Assembly (NCBI GenBank): GCA_023139045.1
Contig: JAGLOJ010000018.1
Span: 1 to 57,699, forward strand
Direction of reading: 5' to 3'
Length of the DNA: 57,699 nucleotides
From: Candidatus Sabulitectum sp.
GTDB taxonomy: Bacteria; Fermentibacterota; Fermentibacteria; Fermentibacterales; JCC-6
Of the stretch, positions 28,247 through 52,321 are shown in pieces. The notes under the pieces are model-generated. The model was not told the origin of the DNA, did no database searches, and worked only from the letters and a program-made list of their open reading frames with translations. Position 1 is the first letter of the stretch. Each line of letters begins with the position of its first letter. The position numbers were made by a program, and so were the translations under genes.

Positions 28247-29914
28247 TTATCTTACAAACTCTTCTTCGCCAAGCCCAGTAACACAGACGGTATACATTCC
28301 AGCTGGAAGCCTGCTCCCTTCCTCACATGGAAGCAAAGTGGTCATTCCTGTGTGTAGCTCTTCAGTTTTAAGATTACCAACAATCCTGCCGTCAATTGAG
28401 TATACCCTGATTTCTACACCATCAGAAAGAGCCAAGGGCAGATTGATTGACAGCTTTATTGTTTCAGCAGGGCTGGATATGAATACTTCAGGGGTGTCAG
28501 TGGCGACTGAAATACTTGCTGCCGTTGAGGAGTTGTTTGTTTCATCTGTTTCAAGATACTCGTTAAATGGATCAGCTATTACCGTTATGCTTCTTTCACT
28601 GTAGCGTTGTGATTGAAGAGGAATCTCGACCTGATGAAAACCCTCTTCAAGAGGAACTCTTACCGAGCCAATAGATCTGCCACCATTAAATGCGACCACT
28701 TCAACAGTTCTGCAACAAATCACAGGCTCTGCAAGCTCGGAAATGTCGGATTCAATGATTAGATCGCTAAATTCAGAGGGGCTGGAAACTCTGGAATTTA
28801 CAAATGACGATCTTGTGCTTAAAACTGGAGCAGACTGTCTTGTGGCTGCTGATACAAATGCTGACATAATAGCAGGAACTGCCTGGGATGTAACACCTGT
28901 TATCTCAATCTCAGCAACAACACAGTTGCCACCTCTGCTTCCCGATGATAAAATACAGGAATTTTCAGATACACTTATATCCAGTCCATAGCCTCGATCA
29001 CTGGAAGTGTTATAGAAACCGTTTCGCAGTGGGTTGTCCTGATACATATGCCAGCCATCGGTTGTGTAGTAACCCTCCCAGTCAAAAAGAGTGGCATGAC
29101 CGGAATAGTCAATATATAGAACTTCTGAAAATCCATCCCCATCCAGGTCACAAACAGCAGGTACAGCAAAGGAGGCATCACGGGTCCATGAGGGGAAGCC
29201 TTCCAGCATTGATGAACCGCTCTGGGGATCATGCCCACAAAGATATGATGAGAATCCTGAAAAGATTGCCATTTCTCCTGAACCCAGCGTTGTAGTAAGA
29301 CCTGTAACCGGCTGTGATCTGATATGCGCTCCACCACCAATTACCGGATTGTAAGGAATATTGGTGCTTTGAAATTCCATTGAACCATCACCCAAATCCC
29401 AGCCGCAGGTAACCCCTTCATAAGTAGGTCCACTACCGCGCATTACATTCTCTCCGTTAAGAGTGTATACAACCTCAAGATCAGAGTTACCATCCAAGTC
29501 TCCAATCGCAGGGCCTGAAAGGTTACTACAAAAGTCCCTCCCGTTCATCCACGGAGTCTGCCATACATAAGTAACATCTACAGGATCGGTGTCCAGAGTG
29601 TACACAAACACTTTCTCAAGTGTTCCGGACAGAACACCTGTTTTAGCGACCCCGGAAATATAGAAAGTGCCGTTCTCCTCTGCAGCAGCAAGTGTACCAA
29701 AAACCCGAGCCGTCTCGTTATCAGTGTCAAGCTCAGTCAATCCATGCGCGGAAATATTCACATTCCCACCATCCTGGAAATCAATAATTTTTAGTTCTGT
29801 TCCATCACCTGCAGATCCGTAAGAAGTGACAACCAGCTCCTCAAAACCGTCTTCATCAAAATCAGAGTCTGCCTCATCTGCGAAATCTGCAAGGGCAACG
29901 GTGTGATTATCCAT
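28247..29914 (-). CDS. Surface protein with sorting domain, 5' end missing
   Basis: From the first plausible Met (29914) 555 residues are encoded. Calcium-type DxDxDG motifs (DFDEDG, DLDGDG) indicate a VCBS/FG-GAP propeller, then a CARDB-like adhesion region (DPFNEYLETDETNNSS), and a terminal sorting domain (VYSIDGRIVG, LPAGMYTV). No signal peptide exists: the protein begins inside a repeat. The frame runs on to 30328, but that part crosses tRNA-Gly and its repeats and is not protein-like. It is therefore a 5'-truncated gene, broken near 29920-29960. Confidence 0.7.
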   Translation of the reverse strand: MDNHTVALADFADEADSDFDEDGFEELVVTSYGSAGDGTELKIIDFQDGGNVNISAHGLTELDTDNETARVFGTLAAAEENGTFYISGVAKTGVLSGTLEKVFVYTLDTDPVDVTYVWQTPWMNGRDFCSNLSGPAIGDLDGNSDLEVVYTLNGENVMRGSGPTYEGVTCGWDLGDGSMEFQSTNIPYNPVIGGGAHIRSQPVTGLTTTLGSGEMAIFSGFSSYLCGHDPQSGSSMLEGFPSWTRDASFAVPAVCDLDGDGFSEVLYIDYSGHATLFDWEGYYTTDGWHMYQDNPLRNGFYNTSSDRGYGLDISVSENSCILSSGSRGGNCVVAEIEITGVTSQAVPAIMSAFVSAATRQSAPVLSTRSSFVNSRVSSPSEFSDLIIESDISELAEPVICCRTVEVVAFNGGRSIGSVRVPLEEGFHQVEIPLQSQRYSERSITVIADPFNEYLETDETNNSSTAASISVATDTPEVFISSPAETIKLSINLPLALSDGVEIRVYSIDGRIVGNLKTEELHTGMTTLLPCEEGSRLPAGMYTVCVTGLGEEEFVR

Positions 29915-29954
29915 ACAGAACCATTCTCCTGAATGAGTAAAACTGCAGATCGGA

Positions 29955-30091
29955 GCTTTTGTTTTTTGATGATCAGAGTGCGGGTAATTGAGCGACAGCA
30001 CAATCCCCGCTCCACTTTTTTGCGCGGCTCCGAATATTGTTTTTGCTTTTTTGATGATCAGAGGGCGGGAAGCAGGGCGGCAGCACTGGTC

Positions 30092-30114
<23 letters not shown>
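29955..30114. repeat. Two direct copies of an 86-bp unit next to tRNA-Gly
   Basis: Copy A (about 29955-30027) and copy B (about 30040-30114) share TTTTTTGATGATCAGAG, CAGCAC and TCCCCGCTCCACTTTTTT in the same order, offset by 85-86 bp, with divergent sequence between. Both end in the same tRNA-3'-end-like sequence followed by GCGCG. Confidence 0.75.
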
Positions 30115-30202
<88 letters not shown>

Positions 30203-30429
30203 TCCGTTTTTGCGTGCGCCGTATATGCTCAATCCAGTAGAAAGTGTCAAGGGCAATTCTGCAAACTCATCATCAAAAAGATGTTTACAGCATCCGTATT
30301 TAATGCACTTCATTCCAGATAACATCACCCTTGTAAATTTACTGCAAAACTATTATTAATCCTTACCTGGCTTGCTATCGTATGCAACACTGTCGCTGTT
30401 TTAAGGAGTTGGTTATCAAAAGTGAGGCC

Positions 30430-44686: not shown

Positions 44687-46636
44687 TCAGCGGCACTCAG
44701 CTACTATCTCTATGAAGCTGTCAGCCTTCAGGCTGGCTCCGCCTACAAGGGCTCCGTTGACATCTTTACCGGCCATAACTTCAGCAGCATTGGTCGGTTT
44801 CACACTGCCTCCGTAGATGATTCCCATTTCCCCGGCAAATTCTTCATCAAGAATCTCCGAAACCCATTCTCTTATGAGGGCATGTATTCTCTGTGCCTCC
44901 TGAGGTGTGGCGGTTTTTCCCGTACCTATGGCCCACACCGGCTCGTAGGCGATAATCAGATTGTAGGGATTGGCATCTTCCAGACCTCTGAGGGCTGATT
45001 CCAACTGCCCGCGGATAACTTCCTCGGTTTTTCCCGCTTCGCGCTGTTCAAGAAGCTCCCCCACACAGAGAACGCAGGATAGTTCAGCGGAAAGACCCGC
45101 CTGTACTTTCTTCCTTACGATCTCATCGGTTTCGCCAAGGATATGCCGTCTCTCACTGTGCCCTGCAAGGAACCAGGAGCATCCTGCTTCTTTAAGCATT
45201 CCAGCGCTTATCTCACCGGTGAATGCACCCTTCTCCTCCCAGAAAATGTCCTGTGCTCCCAGGTATATACCTGCCTTTTCCGCCAGTGGCGCGAAGGCGG
45301 CAAGAAGGGTGAACGGAGCAAAAAGAACCACATCAGCTCCAAAATAGTTAACATTCCCCTCGTCCAGCAGTGAGATGTACTCAATGCCCATAGCCAGTGA
45401 ACCGTTCATCTTCCAGTTGGCTCCTACAAATGGTTTGACTCCATCAATTTTAAGATGCTCAAGGGCTGGAAGTTCTTCACCCTGAAGCAATTTCAGAGAA
45501 GCACCTCCACCGGTGGAAACATGAGTGATCTGCTCTGCAACACCGGCTTCACGAACTGCGCGCATGCTGTCTCCGCCACCTACGACAGCTATTGTACCGT
45601 AGGAAGTCGCATCTGCCATGAATGCAGCAAGTTGTCTGGTACCTATATCGAACGGCCGGATCTCAAATAATCCCATTGGACCGTTCCAGACAATTGTTTT
45701 ACTCTTCAGCATTGTCCTGCGGAACAACTCAATGGATTCCGGTCCAATGTCAAACCCGGCCATATCCGCCGGGAGGTCATCAAATCGCCTGACAACCGCC
45801 TTGTCACCCTGATCTTTTGAGGGAGCGCAGACAATATCCACCGGCAGGATAAGATTTACTCCTTTGGCCTCAGCGGCCTTTATGATGTCCCTGGCTGTCT
45901 GAATTGTATCCTCTTCAACTATGCTTGTACCGGTCTCAAGACCCATTGCCTTATAGAAGGTAAATGCCATGGCTCCTCCTACAATAAGGTTATCCAGTTT
46001 CGGCAGAACATTTTCTATCACTGCAACCTTGTCGCTGACCTTAACACCACCCAGAATTACCGTATATGGCTTCCTGGGGTGCCTTACAAGTTCTCCGAAA
46101 ACCCGCAGTTCTTTTTCCACAAGAAAACCAACATAGCCCCCGCCAAGTATCTCCGGAACACCAACCATAGATGCGTGTTCCCTGTGGCTGGTGCCGAAGG
46201 CATCATTCACATAGATGTCTGCCAGTGCCGCAAGTTTCCGGGAGAAGTCGGGATCGTTTGCTCTCTCCTCGGGATGAAACCGCAGATTTTCAAGAACGAG
46301 AAGTTCTCCCGGGCCAAGACCGGCAGCCATGGCCTCCACTCTTTTGCCAATACAATCTCTTGCAAACAGAATTCTGGTTTCTGTGAGTATTTCCTTCAGC
46401 TTCTCGGCAATGGGCTTCATGCTAAAATCCGGAACTATTTTCCCCTTTGGCCTGCCCAGGTGAGAAGCCAGAACAACAGGTGAACCCTGCTCAATGAGGT
46501 ATCGGATAGTTCTGAGGACTGATCTTATCCTTGTGTCATCAAGTATCTTACCGTCCTCAAGCGGTACATTGAGGTCAGCTCTGAGGAATATTCTCTTCCC
46601 TCCGGTCTTCAGATCTCGAATCGAAGGATACTGCAT
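44687..46636 (-). CDS. Phosphoglycerate kinase-triosephosphate isomerase fusion
   Basis: Two glycolytic enzymes in one chain of 649 residues. PGK spans 1-397: ADLNVPL, HLGRPKG, and the GGGDS nucleotide loop at 353-357. TIM spans about 402-649: Lys409 (NWKMN), His493 (AGHSERR), catalytic Glu565 (AYEPVWAIGTG), and the YGGSVKP phosphate loop. Thermotoga maritima has the same order of fusion. I chose ATG 46636 with AAGGGG upstream, two bases before the gap stop; the longer frame to 46702 reads into gap. All active-site residues are intact. Confidence 0.96.
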   Translation of the reverse strand: MQYPSIRDLKTGGKRIFLRADLNVPLEDGKILDDTRIRSVLRTIRYLIEQGSPVVLASHLGRPKGKIVPDFSMKPIAEKLKEILTETRILFARDCIGKRVEAMAAGLGPGELLVLENLRFHPEERANDPDFSRKLAALADIYVNDAFGTSHREHASMVGVPEILGGGYVGFLVEKELRVFGELVRHPRKPYTVILGGVKVSDKVAVIENVLPKLDNLIVGGAMAFTFYKAMGLETGTSIVEEDTIQTARDIIKAAEAKGVNLILPVDIVCAPSKDQGDKAVVRRFDDLPADMAGFDIGPESIELFRRTMLKSKTIVWNGPMGLFEIRPFDIGTRQLAAFMADATSYGTIAVVGGGDSMRAVREAGVAEQITHVSTGGGASLKLLQGEELPALEHLKIDGVKPFVGANWKMNGSLAMGIEYISLLDEGNVNYFGADVVLFAPFTLLAAFAPLAEKAGIYLGAQDIFWEEKGAFTGEISAGMLKEAGCSWFLAGHSERRHILGETDEIVRKKVQAGLSAELSCVLCVGELLEQREAGKTEEVIRGQLESALRGLEDANPYNLIIAYEPVWAIGTGKTATPQEAQRIHALIREWVSEILDEEFAGEMGIIYGGSVKPTNAAEVMAGKDVNGALVGGASLKADSFIEIVAECR

Positions 46637-46637
46637 A

Positions 46638-47660
46638 TCAGAGCCCCTTTGCGGCCATGAGCAGAAGCATGTCAACCATTCTGGAAGAGTAGCCGAATTC
46701 ATTATCGTACCAGGCGAGAACCTTGAGCATTCTTGGCCCGATCATCTTGGTGATTCCACTGTCAAAGATGCTGCTGTAGGGGTTACCAACGACATCCGAT
46801 GAGACCAGAGGCTCATCCGTGTACTGAAGTACACCCTTCATGGAGGTTTCCGAAGCAACCTTCATTGCATTGTTTACAGCCTCTTCCGTGGCATCGGTCT
46901 TAAGCATACAAACCAGATCCACCAGAGATCCATCAGGCACAGGAACTCTGACGGCCATTCCATCGAGCTTGCCTTTGAGCTCAGGGATAACAAGAGAAAC
47001 AGCGGCTGCAGCGCCTGTAGTTGTAGGGATAACATTGATGGCAGCAGAACGGGCTCTTCTCATGTCGGAGTGGGGAAGGTCAAGAATTCTCTGGTCATTG
47101 GTGTACGCATGAATTGTAGTCATCACACCTGTATCGATACCAAAGGTGTCGTTGAGAACTTTAGCAACCGGGGCAAGACAGTTGGTGGTGCAGCTTGCAG
47201 TGCTTACAACATGGTGTTTTTGTGGATCGTAGAGATCTGAATTGACTCCGAAAACAACTGTCAAATCAGCTCCAGCTTTACCCTTTGCAGGAGCACTGAT
47301 AACAACTTTTTTCGCTCCGGCCTGTATGTGATATGCAGCCTTTTCCCTTGTTCTGAAAAAGCCGGTCGACTCAATAACAATGTCCACACCCATTTCTTTC
47401 CAGGGCAGCTTAAGAGGGTCGGGCTGGCTTGAAACCACAAAGGAATCTCCACCTGCAATGATCCTGTCACCATCTACTTTAACTTCACCTGGAAACACTC
47501 CGTGAACAGAATCATACTTAAGAAGATGAGCCAGCATAGCTGGGTCTGTGAGATCGTTAACAGCAACAATATCGATGTCATCATGCTTGAGAGACTGTCT
47601 GTAAACCAGTCTGCCAATTCGACCAAAACCGTTAATGGCTACTTTTACTTTTACCGACAC
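46638..47660 (-). CDS. gap: Glyceraldehyde-3-phosphate dehydrogenase
   Basis: Oxidises glyceraldehyde-3-phosphate to 1,3-bisphosphoglycerate with NAD. The 340 residues are typical. The Rossmann motif INGFGRIGR (9-17) is followed by Asp36 at the cofactor-selecting position, favouring NAD. Catalytic Cys157 is in STASCTTNC, and the [12 protein letters not shown] closing motif is intact. GTG start behind GGAGAGGAG. It feeds directly into the fused PGK one base downstream. Confidence 0.97.
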
Positions 47661-47681
47661 AGTTTTCTCCTCTCCAATATA

Positions 47682-48719
47682 TCAGCCGTAGAACAGTTCG
47701 GCTGTTTTGATGTGTTCCTCCGGAACAGTTTTAAGAGTTCCAACGGCTTCTGCGAGGTCGGCCGCTATTACTTCAGTTCCCCGGAGAGCCGCCATTTTGC
47801 AATTCTCACCGGATTCGCCGATTTCCACTGCCTTAACACCCAATCGTGTGCCAAGCACCCGATCGAATGCTGAAGGGCTTCCACCGCGCTGAACATGACC
47901 AAGAACAACATGCCTTGTTTCAAGACCGGTTCTGTCCTCGATCTCGTTCTTCAGTACCTCTCCAATTCCAATACCTGTTCCAAGCTGAACATGACCGAAT
48001 GAATCCATCTCTGCTGAATGGTAAACATGACGGGCAAGACCGGGATCAATTGCTCCTTCAGCCACAGCGATCAGGGCATATCTTCTACCCTCCTCATAAC
48101 GCTTTTTCATTACCGCACATACTTCATCGGTGTCAAACTCTTTCTCGGGAGTAAGAATAACATGTGCACCCCCTGCCATACCTCCGTACAAAGCCATCCA
48201 TCCTGCATGGCGACCCATAATTTCCACAACCATCACCCTCTCGTGGCTTCTGGCTGTGGTTTTCAGTTTATCAAGGGCTTCCATCACATAGTTAATTGCA
48301 GAATCGAACCCGAATGTGTAGTCGGTTGCTGACAGATCGTTGTCGATTGTCTTGGGTACACCAACAACAAAAACTCCCATTTCCGCAAGCGTGTTGGCTA
48401 CTCCGAGAGTGTCTTCCCCGCCTACAGCAATAAGAACATCAATATCGTTCTTTTTCAGAGTTTCCCTGATTTTATCCAGACCATTCTCGACCTTTCTCGG
48501 ATTAGTTCTGGAGGAGAAAAGAATCGTACCACCCTGTGTGTGTATGTCGCGGACTGCCTCCCGGTCCAGAGACACAGTGGTGTTCTCAATTGCACCCTTC
48601 CATCCTCTGAGAAAACCGGTCACTTTGTGTCCGCCTGATTCAGCACGAACAACTACACCCCTTATTACGGCATTCAAACCCGGGGCATCACCACCACCGG
48701 TGAGTATTCCAAAGTGCAC
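47682..48719 (-). CDS. Phosphofructokinase, probably pyrophosphate-dependent
   Basis: Phosphorylates fructose-6-phosphate. The 345 residues belong to the PfkA family (LTGGGDAPGLN, PKTIDND, MGRHAGWMAL, GHVQRGGSPSA). Asp103 (GGEDT) and Lys123 (PKTIDND) fall at the two positions that separate PPi-dependent enzymes (Asp, Lys) from ATP-dependent ones (Gly, Gly). So pyrophosphate is the likely donor and the reaction is probably reversible. GTG start; its AGGAGG lies in the last two Arg codons of aroF. Part of the glycolytic run with gap and pgk-tpi. Confidence 0.93.
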   Translation of the reverse strand: MHFGILTGGGDAPGLNAVIRGVVVRAESGGHKVTGFLRGWKGAIENTTVSLDREAVRDIHTQGGTILFSSRTNPRKVENGLDKIRETLKKNDIDVLIAVGGEDTLGVANTLAEMGVFVVGVPKTIDNDLSATDYTFGFDSAINYVMEALDKLKTTARSHERVMVVEIMGRHAGWMALYGGMAGGAHVILTPEKEFDTDEVCAVMKKRYEEGRRYALIAVAEGAIDPGLARHVYHSAEMDSFGHVQLGTGIGIGEVLKNEIEDRTGLETRHVVLGHVQRGGSPSAFDRVLGTRLGVKAVEIGESGENCKMAALRGTEVIAADLAEAVGTLKTVPEEHIKTAELFYG

Positions 48720-48723
48720 TTGT

Positions 48724-49521
48724 TTACCTCCTGTGTTTTTCCTTTAAACGACACGGTGACTGCGGGGCAGCACCGATCGTCTGTGAATACAATCTGAATT
48801 GATCAAGCGAAAGAGACTGCCCTCCGTCAGAAAGAGCTTTGTCCGGATCCGGATGCACCTCAACCATAAGACCATCAGCACCGGCACCCAGTGCCGCCAG
48901 GGACAGAGGCAGAATAAGATCTCTTCTGCCGGCAGCATGACATGGATCAACGATCACCGGAAGACCAAGGGAATTCCTTGCCAGGGGAACCGCTGAAATA
49001 TCAAGGGTGGAACGGGTCCATGTTTCAAAGGTTCTGATTCCCCGTTCGCACAGCACCACGCTCTCGTTTCCCTCTTTAAGGATATATTCTGCAGCAAGAA
49101 GCCACTCCTCTACTGTGGCCATAAAACCCCGCTTCAAAAGAACCGGCATTCCACTGCGCCCTATCTCACTGAGCAGAGTAAAGTTGTGCATATTCCGGGC
49201 ACCGACTTGAAGCATATCAACATATTCGGAGGCGATCTCAATCTGCCCCGCTGACATGACCTCAGTCACAACTGGAATTTTGTATTCGTTCCCCGCTTTT
49301 CTTAGAATTTTCAGCGCATCAACTCCAAGCCCTTGAAACGAATACGGGGATGTGCGAGGTTTCCACGAACCACCTCTAAGCATTTCAGCTCCACATTCAA
49401 CAACAGCTTTTGCAGTTTCCATGACCATCTCTTCATTTTCCACAGAGCATGGACCTGCAATAAGCAGAATTTGCGATCCCCCAAAAACGGCATTTCCCAC
49501 TCTAACTTCTCGTACCAGCAT
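48724..49521 (-). CDS. aroF: 3-deoxy-7-phosphoheptulonate synthase, type I-beta
   Basis: Condenses phosphoenolpyruvate and erythrose-4-phosphate, first step of the shikimate pathway. The 265 residues are the catalytic core only: IAGPCSVE, RGGSWKPRTSPYSFQG, LLKRG, and VDPCHAAGRR, all intact. It lacks the N-terminal ferredoxin-like or chorismate-mutase regulatory domain that many relatives have. The ATG is one base after the AMP-ligase stop, and that ligase ends in a chorismate-mutase-like domain. This pairing is discussed in the findings. Confidence 0.95.
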   Translation of the reverse strand: MLVREVRVGNAVFGGSQILLIAGPCSVENEEMVMETAKAVVECGAEMLRGGSWKPRTSPYSFQGLGVDALKILRKAGNEYKIPVVTEVMSAGQIEIASEYVDMLQVGARNMHNFTLLSEIGRSGMPVLLKRGFMATVEEWLLAAEYILKEGNESVVLCERGIRTFETWTRSTLDISAVPLARNSLGLPVIVDPCHAAGRRDLILPLSLAALGAGADGLMVEVHPDPDKALSDGGQSLSLDQFRLYSQTIGAAPQSPCRLKEKHRR

Positions 49522-49522
49522 G

Positions 49523-51193
49523 TCAGCCCCTCCCCAGATTGTTCATGATGGATCTGATGACTTCCCTGACACTACTGTCAGAGAGGGGTCCGGGGTTATG
49601 TCCCATTGCATTGTTTATCTGCTCCTCAACCCAGTTGGGATTGTATCCGGCATCTATTCTTTCCATGATATTTGCTCTGGAGTTAAGCAGCTTTACAAGA
49701 TCCACATCCAGCCTGAGAAGCTCTGCCCGGTAGTCAGGAGCAATATCCTGCCTGGCAATTCTTGCTCTATCCAGCTTCCCGGAAGCTGTCCGCGGAAGAC
49801 TGTTGCTGAAAAAATACTTCCGGGGCATCTTGAAGTCCTCCAGGATGTCCAGGAGAAAATTCCTCAAGTCATGTTTGGTAAGTTCCACCCCTCCGGGAAG
49901 AACAACGTACGCAACCGGAGCCTCTCCCCGACCGGGAAAGTCCTTTCCGACCACACACACATCCCTCACCGATGGATGCTTAAGAATGGCCAGTTCAACT
50001 TCACTGGGATAGACTTTGAGCCCTGAAGCCTTGATAAGCCCTCCCCGTCTTCCTGTGAAGTAAAGCCGTCCACTTCGCCTTGTAAAGATGTCTCCGGTTC
50101 TGTACCATCCGTCAATAAGAATTTCAGAGGAATCTGATCGTTCACCGAGATATCGATTTACAATACCTTCTCCGGCAATCCACAATTCTCCTCTGCCGTT
50201 ACCCTCTACCACTGCACTTTCATCACGAAGTTGAACACTGTACCCGAAAGCCACAGATGAATACCCCACAACTCCGGGATCACCGATAAGAACCACACCG
50301 GAGGTTTCTGTACTGCCCCATACAGGAGTAACCTTTTCTCCGGTTCGCTCTTTAAACGCTGAAAGAAATCTCTCTGTAACCCTCATACCTCCGGTTTCCA
50401 CAATGCGCAGAGATGAAACATCTGCGTCTTCCCTGCTGGCAAGCCGGCTTAAGGCATCCAGCTGAGGAGGAAGCCCCATAAGAAAGGTGACCTTGTGCTT
50501 ACTGATCATGTGAATGTGCTGTCTTGGATAGACCGAGGGCTCCAGAACAGTGGTTGCCCCAAGATACAGGCCACGCATAAAAATTTCGTGAGGGTGCCCG
50601 ATAACCCCGAAAAGTGACATCAAAACATCATCACCCGTGAGTTCAAGATCCTCACAGACTGATGCTGTGTTTATCAACAGTTCCCGGTGTGTTGTAACAG
50701 CAACCTTGGGCAGACCCGTGGACCCGCTTGTCACATTCATGTAGAACTCGTCAAAAGTATCTATCCTGGGGCTGCCCTGGGGAGAAAGAGCCGGAGAGTT
50801 GATATCTGATCTGCCGAAAGGCAACAGGGTACTTGCTTTCCAGCCATCGATCTCCATTCCCTCCCAGCAGAGAATAAAACGCTTGTTCCACCTGGTAAAA
50901 ACCATCTCTCTGTCTTCAGAAAGCCAGCCGGGATTCAGGCCCAGAAATCGAGCTCCCGCCTTTGAAATTGCTGTAAACGCCACAGGAAGGCCGCAGGTTC
51001 TGCCGACCTGAACTCCCACAAGAGTTCCCTTTTCCACACCGGCCGTTTGAAGTCTGCCGGCCAGGTGCTCCGAAGCCCGGTGCCACTGGGCAAATGTAAG
51101 GGAGCTCTCGCTGTCCTGGAGGGCGATCTTGTCTGGAGTCTCCATGGCCCACTGTTCAAGCAGGCCATGGATAGTAAGAATTGTTCTATTCAA
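49523..51193 (-). CDS. AMP-forming acyl/aryl-CoA ligase with AroQ-like C-terminal domain
   Basis: Adenylate-forming ligase of about 556 residues. The ANL core has TSGSTGLPK (155-163), a GSTETSG motif, the WYRTGD hinge region and catalytic Lys473 (SGKLDR). A further 63 residues (494-556) resemble the AroQ chorismate-mutase helix bundle: LVKLLNSRANIMERI, YNPNWVEEQ and GPLSDSSVREVI. The arginine before the conserved Glu is replaced by Val and the core Lys is absent, so mutase activity is unlikely. I chose TTG 51193; the frame to 51325 overlaps the SPFH zinc ribbons. The ligase substrate is unknown. Confidence 0.82.
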   Translation of the reverse strand: MNRTILTIHGLLEQWAMETPDKIALQDSESSLTFAQWHRASEHLAGRLQTAGVEKGTLVGVQVGRTCGLPVAFTAISKAGARFLGLNPGWLSEDREMVFTRWNKRFILCWEGMEIDGWKASTLLPFGRSDINSPALSPQGSPRIDTFDEFYMNVTSGSTGLPKVAVTTHRELLINTASVCEDLELTGDDVLMSLFGVIGHPHEIFMRGLYLGATTVLEPSVYPRQHIHMISKHKVTFLMGLPPQLDALSRLASREDADVSSLRIVETGGMRVTERFLSAFKERTGEKVTPVWGSTETSGVVLIGDPGVVGYSSVAFGYSVQLRDESAVVEGNGRGELWIAGEGIVNRYLGERSDSSEILIDGWYRTGDIFTRRSGRLYFTGRRGGLIKASGLKVYPSEVELAILKHPSVRDVCVVGKDFPGRGEAPVAYVVLPGGVELTKHDLRNFLLDILEDFKMPRKYFFSNSLPRTASGKLDRARIARQDIAPDYRAELLRLDVDLVKLLNSRANIMERIDAGYNPNWVEEQINNAMGHNPGPLSDSSVREVIRSIMNNLGRG

Positions 51194-52310
51194 CCTTTTT
51201 GCCACAATCGGGGCAGAACTTACTGCCAGCCGGAATGTCGGCACCACACTCGCATTTTGTTCCTCCACCGATCCTGGTTCCGCATTCGGGGCAGAATTTA
51301 CCACCGGCAGGAACCGGTTTGCCACAGGACGGGCAACTTTCCGCTAGAGTTTTTCCGCATTCCGGGCAGAATTTACCATCGGCTACTGACTTGCCGCACG
51401 ACGGGCAGGTAACCAGTGCAACAGCCGGAACAGCAGCTGGAGCATCAGTTTGAGGTGCCATTGCCTGACCCATCTGGTTGGCCATAACCATCCCCATTCC
51501 AAGCCCTGCTCCCATTCCAACTCCGGCACCGGCAGCGCCACCACCGCCACCCGCCTTGGCTGCGTCACCCAGTGCAGTAGCTGTTTTGAATCTCATGTAT
51601 TCGTTCATGTCACCAAGAACACCCATGCCGCTTCTCTCATCGATCCGTTTCTGAACCTCCTCGGGAGGCGTGATGGCACTGATATAAAAATCAACCATCT
51701 GAATGCCGTACTTGCTGAAGTCATCGGTAAATCTTGCTTTCGCAAGAGTACCAAGTTCATCGTACTTGGCTGCAAGATCAAAAATGGTAGACATGGTTTC
51801 GCCAAGAAGATCAGCAAGTCTGCTGATGATAATATTCTTCAGGAAACCCTCAATATCTCCGGTAGAGTATCTTCCCTCAGTTCCCACAATTTTGTTGACA
51901 AAAAGCAGACTGTCAATAATTTTCATGGAAAAACTGCCGAAGGCTCGAAGTCTTACCATGGAAAGCTCTGAGTCACGGAATAATATCGGCTCTTTCGTGC
52001 CCCACTTCATATTCGTGAAAGTCTTCTTGTTTACGTAGTAAACTTCAGCTTTAAACGGTGTACCCTCACCGGCAAATGCCATATCAACAATACCGGCGAG
52101 AATAGGGATATTCTGTGTGGTGAGAGTATGTCTTCCCGGTCCGAGAATATCCATTGCCTTGCCGTCACGGTAGAATACCGCTTCCTGGCTTTCTCTTACT
52201 ACACACTGGCTGCCAAGGCGAAATTCACCGGAACCGTGTTCCGGAATCCTGTGAGCGATCTCTTTCCCGGAATTATCCAGAAATTCAATTATTTCAGGTC
52301 TCTTAAACAT
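51186..52310 (-). CDS. SPFH-domain protein with three zinc ribbons
   Basis: Band-7/SPFH 'virion core-like' protein of 374 residues, similar in plan to Bacillus YdjI. The SPFH region occupies about 20-235, then a Gly/Ala/Met-rich low-complexity linker (about 250-285), and three C-terminal zinc ribbons with CPSCG..CPECG, CPSCG..CPECG and CECG..CPDCG cysteine pairs. No transmembrane helix. It probably forms membrane-associated oligomers. ATG 52310 has GGGAGAG seven bases upstream. The downstream ligase starts in its last codons. Confidence 0.9.
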   Translation of the reverse strand: MFKRPEIIEFLDNSGKEIAHRIPEHGSGEFRLGSQCVVRESQEAVFYRDGKAMDILGPGRHTLTTQNIPILAGIVDMAFAGEGTPFKAEVYYVNKKTFTNMKWGTKEPILFRDSELSMVRLRAFGSFSMKIIDSLLFVNKIVGTEGRYSTGDIEGFLKNIIISRLADLLGETMSTIFDLAAKYDELGTLAKARFTDDFSKYGIQMVDFYISAITPPEEVQKRIDERSGMGVLGDMNEYMRFKTATALGDAAKAGGGGGAAGAGVGMGAGLGMGMVMANQMGQAMAPQTDAPAAVPAVALVTCPSCGKSVADGKFCPECGKTLAESCPSCGKPVPAGGKFCPECGTRIGGGTKCECGADIPAGSKFCPDCGKKVE

Positions 52311-52321
52311 GGTCACTCTCC

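Follow-up and report, generated by a model that had tools for sequence, protein, structure and literature searches.

A chorismate mutase-like tail on an acyl ligase encoded beside a DAHP synthase in Candidatus Fermentibacterota

The window analyzed here is a whole stretch of 57,699 nucleotides (nt) from contig JAGLOJ010000018.1 of Candidatus Sabulitectum sp., a member of the phylum Candidatus Fermentibacterota (Hyd24-12). It encodes an acyl or aryl ligase of the ANL superfamily whose C-terminal tail is predicted to fold as an AroQ (chorismate mutase) helix bundle, followed after one base by a 3-deoxy-D-arabino-heptulosonate 7-phosphate (DAHP) synthase. Our leading interpretation, held with a little less than even confidence, is that the ligase–AroQ protein and the DAHP synthase are inherited together as parts of a shikimate route that mostly does not reach chorismate, with the tail acting as a non-catalytic ligand-binding or docking module and the ligase activating an acid derived from the route. 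Retention of the DAHP synthase beside the ligase in genomes where we detect no chorismate-forming enzymes suggests that the shikimate route is used there for something other than aromatic amino acids. If so, early shikimate enzymes are used outside chorismate synthesis in uncultured bacteria, and a mutase domain has moved to a neighboring enzyme and been retained without its chemistry.

The gene pair and the AroQ-like tail

Coordinates throughout are those of the window. The ligase, the DAHP synthase and the neighbors listed further below are on the minus strand, and the pair has the following features.

49523..51193, minus strand: ANL-superfamily acyl/aryl ligase with a C-terminal AroQ-like tail; 556 residues, TTG start at 51193, TGA stop at 49525-49523
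50147..51160, minus strand: AMP-binding domain (PF00501), residues 12-349; 173 bits, P-loop motif TSGSTGLPK intact
50585..50596, minus strand: HPHE motif in the A4 region, residues 200-203, from sequence comparison of ligases
49775..50002, minus strand: AMP-binding_C domain (PF13193), residues 398-473, ending with lysine K473; 67 bits
49535..49732, minus strand: degenerate AroQ (chorismate mutase) helix bundle, residues 488-553, from profiles and predicted fold
49676..49678, minus strand: R506, the equivalent of mutase R28 in tail alignments
49631..49633, minus strand: W521, in place of mutase R51 in tail alignments
49519..49525, minus strand: junction TGA-C-ATG of ligase stop and DAHP synthase start, with one base between them
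48724..49521, minus strand: type I-beta DAHP synthase without a regulatory domain, 265 residues (PF00793, TIGR01361)

Membership of the ligase in the ANL superfamily follows from PF00501 and PF13193 matches above cut-off, the P-loop and the A10 lysine. K473 is invariant in 16/16 aligned ligase sequences, and the P-loop lysine is replaced by methionine in one (L027). The fold is nearest to those of benzoate–CoA ligase (4rm3), MenE (5x8g) and 4-chlorobenzoyl–CoA ligase (3cw9); the window ligase shares their overall fold and ANL adenylation motifs but is only 24–25 percent identical to them and differs in having HPHE at A4 and an AroQ tail. Among the best 25 of 109 matching NCBIfam families none reaches its cut-off, the top match being the subfamily model PRK06187 (247.8 bits versus 476), and the substrate class is not assigned by this route. 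The HPHE motif weakly suggests a polar substrate.

The DAHP synthase scores 274 bits with PF00793 and 369.7 bits with TIGR01361 (cut-off 267.75), and its best solved chain is 1vs1. Searches of Pfam and NCBIfam detect neither an AroQ nor any other N-terminal domain in it. An earlier note on this DNA had described a bare DAHP synthase one base beyond the ligase, and both the junction and the missing domain agree with that description. Since a stop and then a new start lie between the two frames, the AroQ domain and the DAHP synthase are on separate chains.

The tail begins at about residue 486. On the whole ligase the CM_2 profile (PF01817) matches residues 489–551 with 21.7 bits, under its gathering cut-off of 27, and on the last 78 residues alone it scores 28.6 bits (E 1.7e-6). 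The best NCBIfam family for the tail is TIGR01801 (CM_A), the mutase domain of AroQ–DAHP synthases, which matches the ligase at E 5e-7 with 29.8 bits, below its cut-off of 106.35. This family is matched by 18/18 phylum tails at E ≤ 1; it and PRK12595 are the only two families that all 18 match. When PDB chains are searched by sequence, the window tail alone first retrieves a designed repeat protein (8vd6, E 1.2e-4, with no stretch individually significant) and then three AroQ–DAHP synthase entries (E 0.0025–0.0055), and the best hits of a profile built from the 18 tails are four AroQ–DAHP synthase chains (E 1.5e-5 to 0.055).

Structure prediction points the same way. An AlphaFold2 model of the whole ligase (40 rows; predicted local distance difference test score, pLDDT, 83.6) has tail helices at residues 488–513, 519–530 and 539–553, with a local confidence of 59–75, and a model of the tail only (29 rows) reaches a pLDDT of 82.8. 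Foldseek returns 28 PDB matches to the tail model, none with E < 1e-3; the best is 2d8d (TM-score 0.79, best E 2.9e-3). Ranks 1–10 are AroQ domains of AroQ–DAHP synthases; further chorismate mutases, together with isochorismate-pyruvate lyase, fill ranks 11–15. An unnamed Pyrococcus protein stands at rank 16, and the remaining matches resemble noise. The tail thus has an AroQ fold in the predicted models and is, by profile and by fold, most similar to the AroQ domains of AroQ–DAHP synthases. A chance match of a helical tail is ruled out by the agreement of all 18 tails and by the predicted fold. The degenerate bundle recognized in the earlier note is borne out, with its extent corrected: the note placed it at residues 494–556, and the helices are predicted from 488.

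We aligned 18 phylum tails, six tails from outside the phylum and the stand-alone chorismate mutase of the window's genome, numbering the catalytic residues R11, R28, K39, R51 and Q88 as in Escherichia coli chorismate mutase. The stand-alone enzyme, our positive control, keeps R11, R28, K39 and R51 in the alignment; ungapped counting adds S84 and Q88. The tails, as the note had anticipated, lack key mutase residues: K39 is retained in 0/24 and R51 in 3/24 (L228, L229 and L231, all outside the phylum), with tryptophan in place of R51 in 18/18 phylum tails. The Q88 column holds glutamine in none of the 24, and by ungapped counting the terminal glutamine of L021 would fall there. The R28 equivalent is, however, retained in 24/24, and the R11 position is arginine or lysine in all 18 phylum tails and three of the six outside ones. 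Invariant across the phylum sample of tails are L493, R494, D496, R506, W521, Q525, G531, H532, N533, G535 and D539.

Among nine ligases of genus g1 the ratio of nonsynonymous to synonymous substitution rates (dN/dS) is 0.050 for the tail, 0.043 for the ligase core, 0.030 for AMP-binding_C and 0.041 for the DAHP synthase. These values derive from 35, 29, 19 and 29 usable pairs of 36, respectively, with synonymous sites near saturation. Within the genus the tail is, as judged from these sequences, under purifying selection like the core, and a decaying pseudogene domain is ruled out by the dN/dS values. Low tail dN/dS together with the lost mutase residues indicates that the tail is retained in this genus for some function other than mutase catalysis.

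The shikimate route and its chorismate end

We searched 42 phylum genomes, those with names being metagenome-assembled. Of the 42, 24 reach a completeness of 90 percent or more with contamination of no more than 5 percent ('good' genomes). The ligase is detected by a full-length profile in 37/42 genomes and in all 24 good ones, and a tail profile finds the tail in 38/42, the additional case being a contig-end fragment in G006. A ligase-linked DAHP synthase is likewise present in 38/42. This conservation of ligase and tail across the phylum rules out an assembly artefact. In one genome (G012) the ligase frame runs on in frame into the DAHP synthase, to which we give no weight because frames of other genes in the cluster are also broken there. 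The ligase of another (G023:C56; L022, L055) contains one internal TGA.

The route enzymes profiled were DAHP synthase, 3-dehydroquinate (DHQ) synthase (AroB), DHQ dehydratase, shikimate dehydrogenase (AroE), 5-enolpyruvylshikimate 3-phosphate (EPSP) synthase and chorismate synthase (AroC). The early steps are widespread: the AroB family is found in 36/42 phylum genomes, type II DHQ dehydratase in 39/42 and AroE in 38/42. PF00793 is matched in 42/42, a count that includes 3-deoxy-D-manno-octulosonate 8-phosphate (KDO8P) synthase, which is what the second copy proved to be in 4/4 cases checked. The chorismate end is confined to 12/42 genomes (7/24 good ones for AroC), with EPSP synthase and a separate chorismate mutase above cut-off in the same 12. 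The same searches recover AroC and EPSP synthase in 14/14 control genomes.

In the other 17 of the 24 good genomes the profile searches found neither AroC nor EPSP synthase, and their completeness of at least 90 percent makes missing data an unlikely cause. All 17 have AroB, DHQ dehydratase and the ligase-linked DAHP synthase, and 16 have AroE, which is absent in G021. The DAHP synthase adjoins the ligase in every one of the 17, as read at 14 loci and taken from coordinates at three. A further DAHP synthase occurs in G015 and G024, both of which have a chorismate end. The copy in G015 matches PRK08673 over nearly its whole length and so carries an N-terminal extension that is absent from the ligase-linked enzyme; the copy in G024 is truncated where its contig ends, with EPSP synthase and AroC next to it.

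Motifs were checked with custom patterns, so that a failed pattern may reflect the regular expression. The AroE lysine motif NVTxPxK is present in 10/10 loci and NTD in 9/10. For AroB, 8 of 12 sequences passed the filter, and among these eight PTTLL...GGK..N and KN..G are found in all, E..K and HGxA in seven each, and GGG...D and N.GHT..H in three each. For DHQ dehydratase, 6/10 loci passed, two of them with all four patterns.

Two side observations concern these genes. In the window's genome EPSP synthase, AroC and the intact chorismate mutase form a compact cluster (L035 4534-6935; G000:C24:11949-12176). The AroE gene is flanked by two radical S-adenosylmethionine (SAM) genes in 10/10 loci (L189 3047-6079, which is the window's genome, G000:C127, and the odd-numbered loci from L191 to L207); the two in the window's genome are a B12-binding protein resembling TIGR04072/BzaD (below cut-offs) and a HydE-like one (231 bits versus 254.6).

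Ligase–AroQ proteins outside the phylum

A pattern-based contig scan for relatives, of which we kept the best 80 of 106, gave identities of at most 39 percent in the best segment outside the phylum. The tail profile, run over 329 genomes, matches 71, namely 38 of the phylum and 33 outside it. Six of the outside matches are ligase–AroQ proteins (L228–L233); among the other 27 genomes nine were read at the sequence level and 18 were left unread. HPHE stands at A4 in 15/15 ligase–AroQ proteins (six outside, nine of the phylum) versus 0/15 other ligases compared, and the six outside and nine phylum ligases therefore look like one family. The combination of HPHE and tail, which marked the family in all 15, makes the ligase–AroQ gene a handle for finding such routes.

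The pairing found throughout the phylum recurs outside it: a DAHP synthase gene directly follows the ligase–AroQ gene in 4/6 outside loci (L230–L233). The earlier note had held that tailed ligases lying far from aromatic genes would speak against it. The four adjoining loci accord with its view; the remaining two, L228 and L229, where no DAHP synthase lies within the 13–14 kb read, partly bear out the objection. Profile searches did not find AroC in four of the six outside genomes (G189, G327, G220 and G075, which are 94–98 percent complete). In the ligases of L230 (7063-8907) and L233 (4439-6214), the two from genomes G189 and G327, the P-loop motif is broken and the A10 lysine is replaced by arginine. 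From these changes they are probably inactive, and they still stand directly before a DAHP synthase. This argues that partnership with the DAHP synthase can outlive acid activation.

At L230 (1345-11207) the neighbors of the pair are heptosyltransferase-like and glycosyltransferase-like genes (named from sequence), an HpnJ-like B12-radical SAM gene, an LpxL-like acyltransferase gene and an AroB-like gene, the last lying about 0.4 kb past the end of the DAHP synthase gene. We considered whether a B12-radical SAM partner is shared, and give this no weight: the protein beside AroE and that of L230 are only 24 percent identical.

Possible roles of the tail and the conserved gene neighborhood

Two known arrangements are informative here. 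The first comprises the AroQ–DAHP synthases, represented by 3nvt/3tfc (Listeria), 5j6f (Geobacillus), AroA(G) of Bacillus subtilis (5gmu/5go2) and 2d8d (Thermus). As in the window, the AroQ coding sequence directly precedes that of a type I-beta DAHP synthase, and the tail finds its best matches by profile and by fold among these proteins; here, in contrast, AroQ belongs to a separate protein, the acyl ligase, and lacks K39 and R51. The second is the MtCM–MtDS complex of Mycobacterium tuberculosis, in which, according to its description (PMC4281200), AroQ acts with a DAHP synthase in trans and the equivalents of Ser84 and Gln88 are absent. MtCM is, unlike the tail, a free and active mutase with no ligase, whereas our pair is known from sequence and contact between its members is only proposed. 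The earlier note knew of no described system of its kind; a trans complex of AroQ and DAHP synthase is, with MtCM–MtDS, already on record. Chorismate mutase–cyclohexadienyl dehydratase fusions are a comparably rare joining of a mutase domain to another enzyme, but they are described (PMC10520331) as bifunctional and exported from the cytoplasm. Among the matches listed from the open-license PMC literature (10–15 of up to 90 papers), titles and abstract openings yielded no description of a ligase–AroQ fusion or of a Fermentibacterota shikimate route.

We infer the substrate, the ligand and the docking of the ligase–tail–DAHP synthase system as follows. The tail probably derives from the N-terminal domain of an AroQ–DAHP synthase, and a shift of the gene boundary passed it to the ligase; this rests on profile and fold preference rather than on a tree. 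It would probably bind a small ring carboxylate through R506 and the other invariant residues, or dock on the DAHP synthase, or both, and, although non-catalytic, may by analogy with MtCM still touch the DAHP synthase in trans. A trans link of this kind, which the earlier note had suggested, is reasonable because the solved structures closest to the tail come from AroQ domains of AroQ–DAHP synthases. The ligase would probably adenylate a carboxylic acid of the route, such as shikimate, dehydroshikimate or a derived aryl acid, and DAHP supply would thereby be coupled to acid activation. A product of the omega-cyclohexyl fatty acid or cyclohexanecarboxyl–CoA type is speculative, and searches gave nothing useful for it. 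One general consequence would be that the presence of DAHP synthase, AroB and AroE in a genome need not mean aromatic amino acid synthesis.

Several observations weigh against this interpretation. With respect to the route, EPSP synthase, AroC and a good chorismate mutase are all present in the window's own genome. Neither there nor in the nine other genomes of its genus with a chorismate end did we find an additional DAHP synthase matching PF00793, so that in the window's genome the ligase-linked enzyme probably also serves chorismate. Scores fall below several NCBIfam equivalog cut-offs for AroB (247–274 bits versus 305), AroE (137–150 versus 200) and DHQ dehydratase (146 versus 170), and the products of these enzymes may therefore differ from the textbook ones; DHQ dehydratase does exceed one subfamily cut-off (155 versus 130 bits). 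As a scale for the missing AroC, Zucko et al. (2010, PMC3018139) report that the pathway was incomplete in 16/147 free-living bacteria, the absent steps following no pattern. With respect to the family, no DAHP synthase lies within the 13–14 kb read around the ligase–AroQ genes of L228 and L229, two outside genomes with the ligase–DAHP synthase pair (G118 and G260) have AroC, and several residues invariant in the phylum tail are not conserved in the outside tails. Because the ligase is apparently dead in G189 and G327, acid activation cannot be a role common to the whole family. Even the origin of the tail is not clear-cut, as the tail profile scores an AroQ–DAHP synthase (G132) at 27.6 bits and an AroQ frame (G090) at 26.8 bits; the latter and similar AroQ frames look like P-proteins by sequence. 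On the PDB and NCBIfam matches we favor AroQ–DAHP synthase over AroQ–PheA as the source.

A bolder form of our interpretation extends it to the whole phylum: the route would stop at shikimate throughout, the DAHP synthase would have become unfused, its former AroQ would now be a dead sensor or dock on the acyl ligase, and the route acid would be activated for a lipid, glycan or cofactor product. We consider this form doubtful.

The strongest alternative, which we regard as unlikely but a serious contender, takes the tail to be a structural or dimerization domain of the ligase with no ligand and no contact to the DAHP synthase, the gene order reflecting co-transcription. AroQ domains are intertwined dimers. 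Loss of K39 in every tail, the tail-bearing ligases of L228 and L229 with no DAHP synthase nearby, and a long conserved gene order that includes unrelated genes (see below) would all fit. The invariant polar residues R494, D496, R506, W521, Q525, H532, N533 and D539, however, resemble a site rather than packing alone, and pairing with the DAHP synthase recurs in four genomes outside the phylum.

It is also conceivable, though rather improbable, that the route is a modified one, for example of the amino-shikimate type, with the ligase loading its aryl product and the tail binding that product. The sub-threshold scores of AroB, AroE and DHQ dehydratase and the aryl-acid type of the ligase fold speak for such a route; a DAHP synthase above its equivalog cut-off and the AroE lysine motif kept at all ten loci speak against it.

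The proposal of the earlier note, a tail that serves as sensor for prephenate, chorismate, Phe or Tyr and conveys feedback to the DAHP synthase in trans, appears improbable to us. It draws on the fused AroQ–DAHP synthases as nearest solved relatives, on the precedent of MtCM–MtDS and on the window's genome, where a chorismate end is present and PF00793 matches reveal no additional DAHP synthase. Against it, the pair is fully retained in the 17 good genomes that yielded neither EPSP synthase nor AroC, and none of the 18 phylum tails keeps K39 or R51. Feedback by prephenate or Phe is unlikely as a general role, since the search did not detect chorismate synthase in 30/42 phylum genomes. Of the binding module tied in trans envisaged in the note, the link thus stands as reasonable and the sensing of intermediates late in the aromatic pathway is unsupported. 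An active chorismate mutase of an unusual kind, for which the AroQ fold, the retained R28 equivalent and the similar lack of Ser84 and Gln88 equivalents in MtCM (PMC4281200) might be cited, is very improbable and is rejected on the loss of both K39 and R51 in every phylum tail. The window's genome also carries an intact mutase at another site, and only 12/42 phylum genomes yielded chorismate synthase.

The pair is embedded in an order of genes that is conserved in the phylum as far as the loci reach: MltG, a 174-residue protein, an SPFH protein, the ligase, the DAHP synthase, phosphofructokinase, glyceraldehyde-3-phosphate dehydrogenase (GAPDH) and a fusion of phosphoglycerate kinase and triosephosphate isomerase (PGK–TIM). 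In the window the flanking members are as follows.

51186..52316, minus strand: SPFH/band-7 protein with zinc ribbons, conserved upstream neighbor (Pfam, comparison of loci)
44687..48719, minus strand: conserved downstream neighbors phosphofructokinase, GAPDH and PGK–TIM fusion (the first two from Pfam, PGK–TIM named from sequence)

PGK and TIM are fused here as one frame of 671 residues (44687-46702) and are separate frames in L025, L028 and L029. Elsewhere in the window, the start of a 693-residue frame (28247-30328) overlaps a tRNA-Gly gene at 30127-30202, and the true gene therefore probably starts further in.

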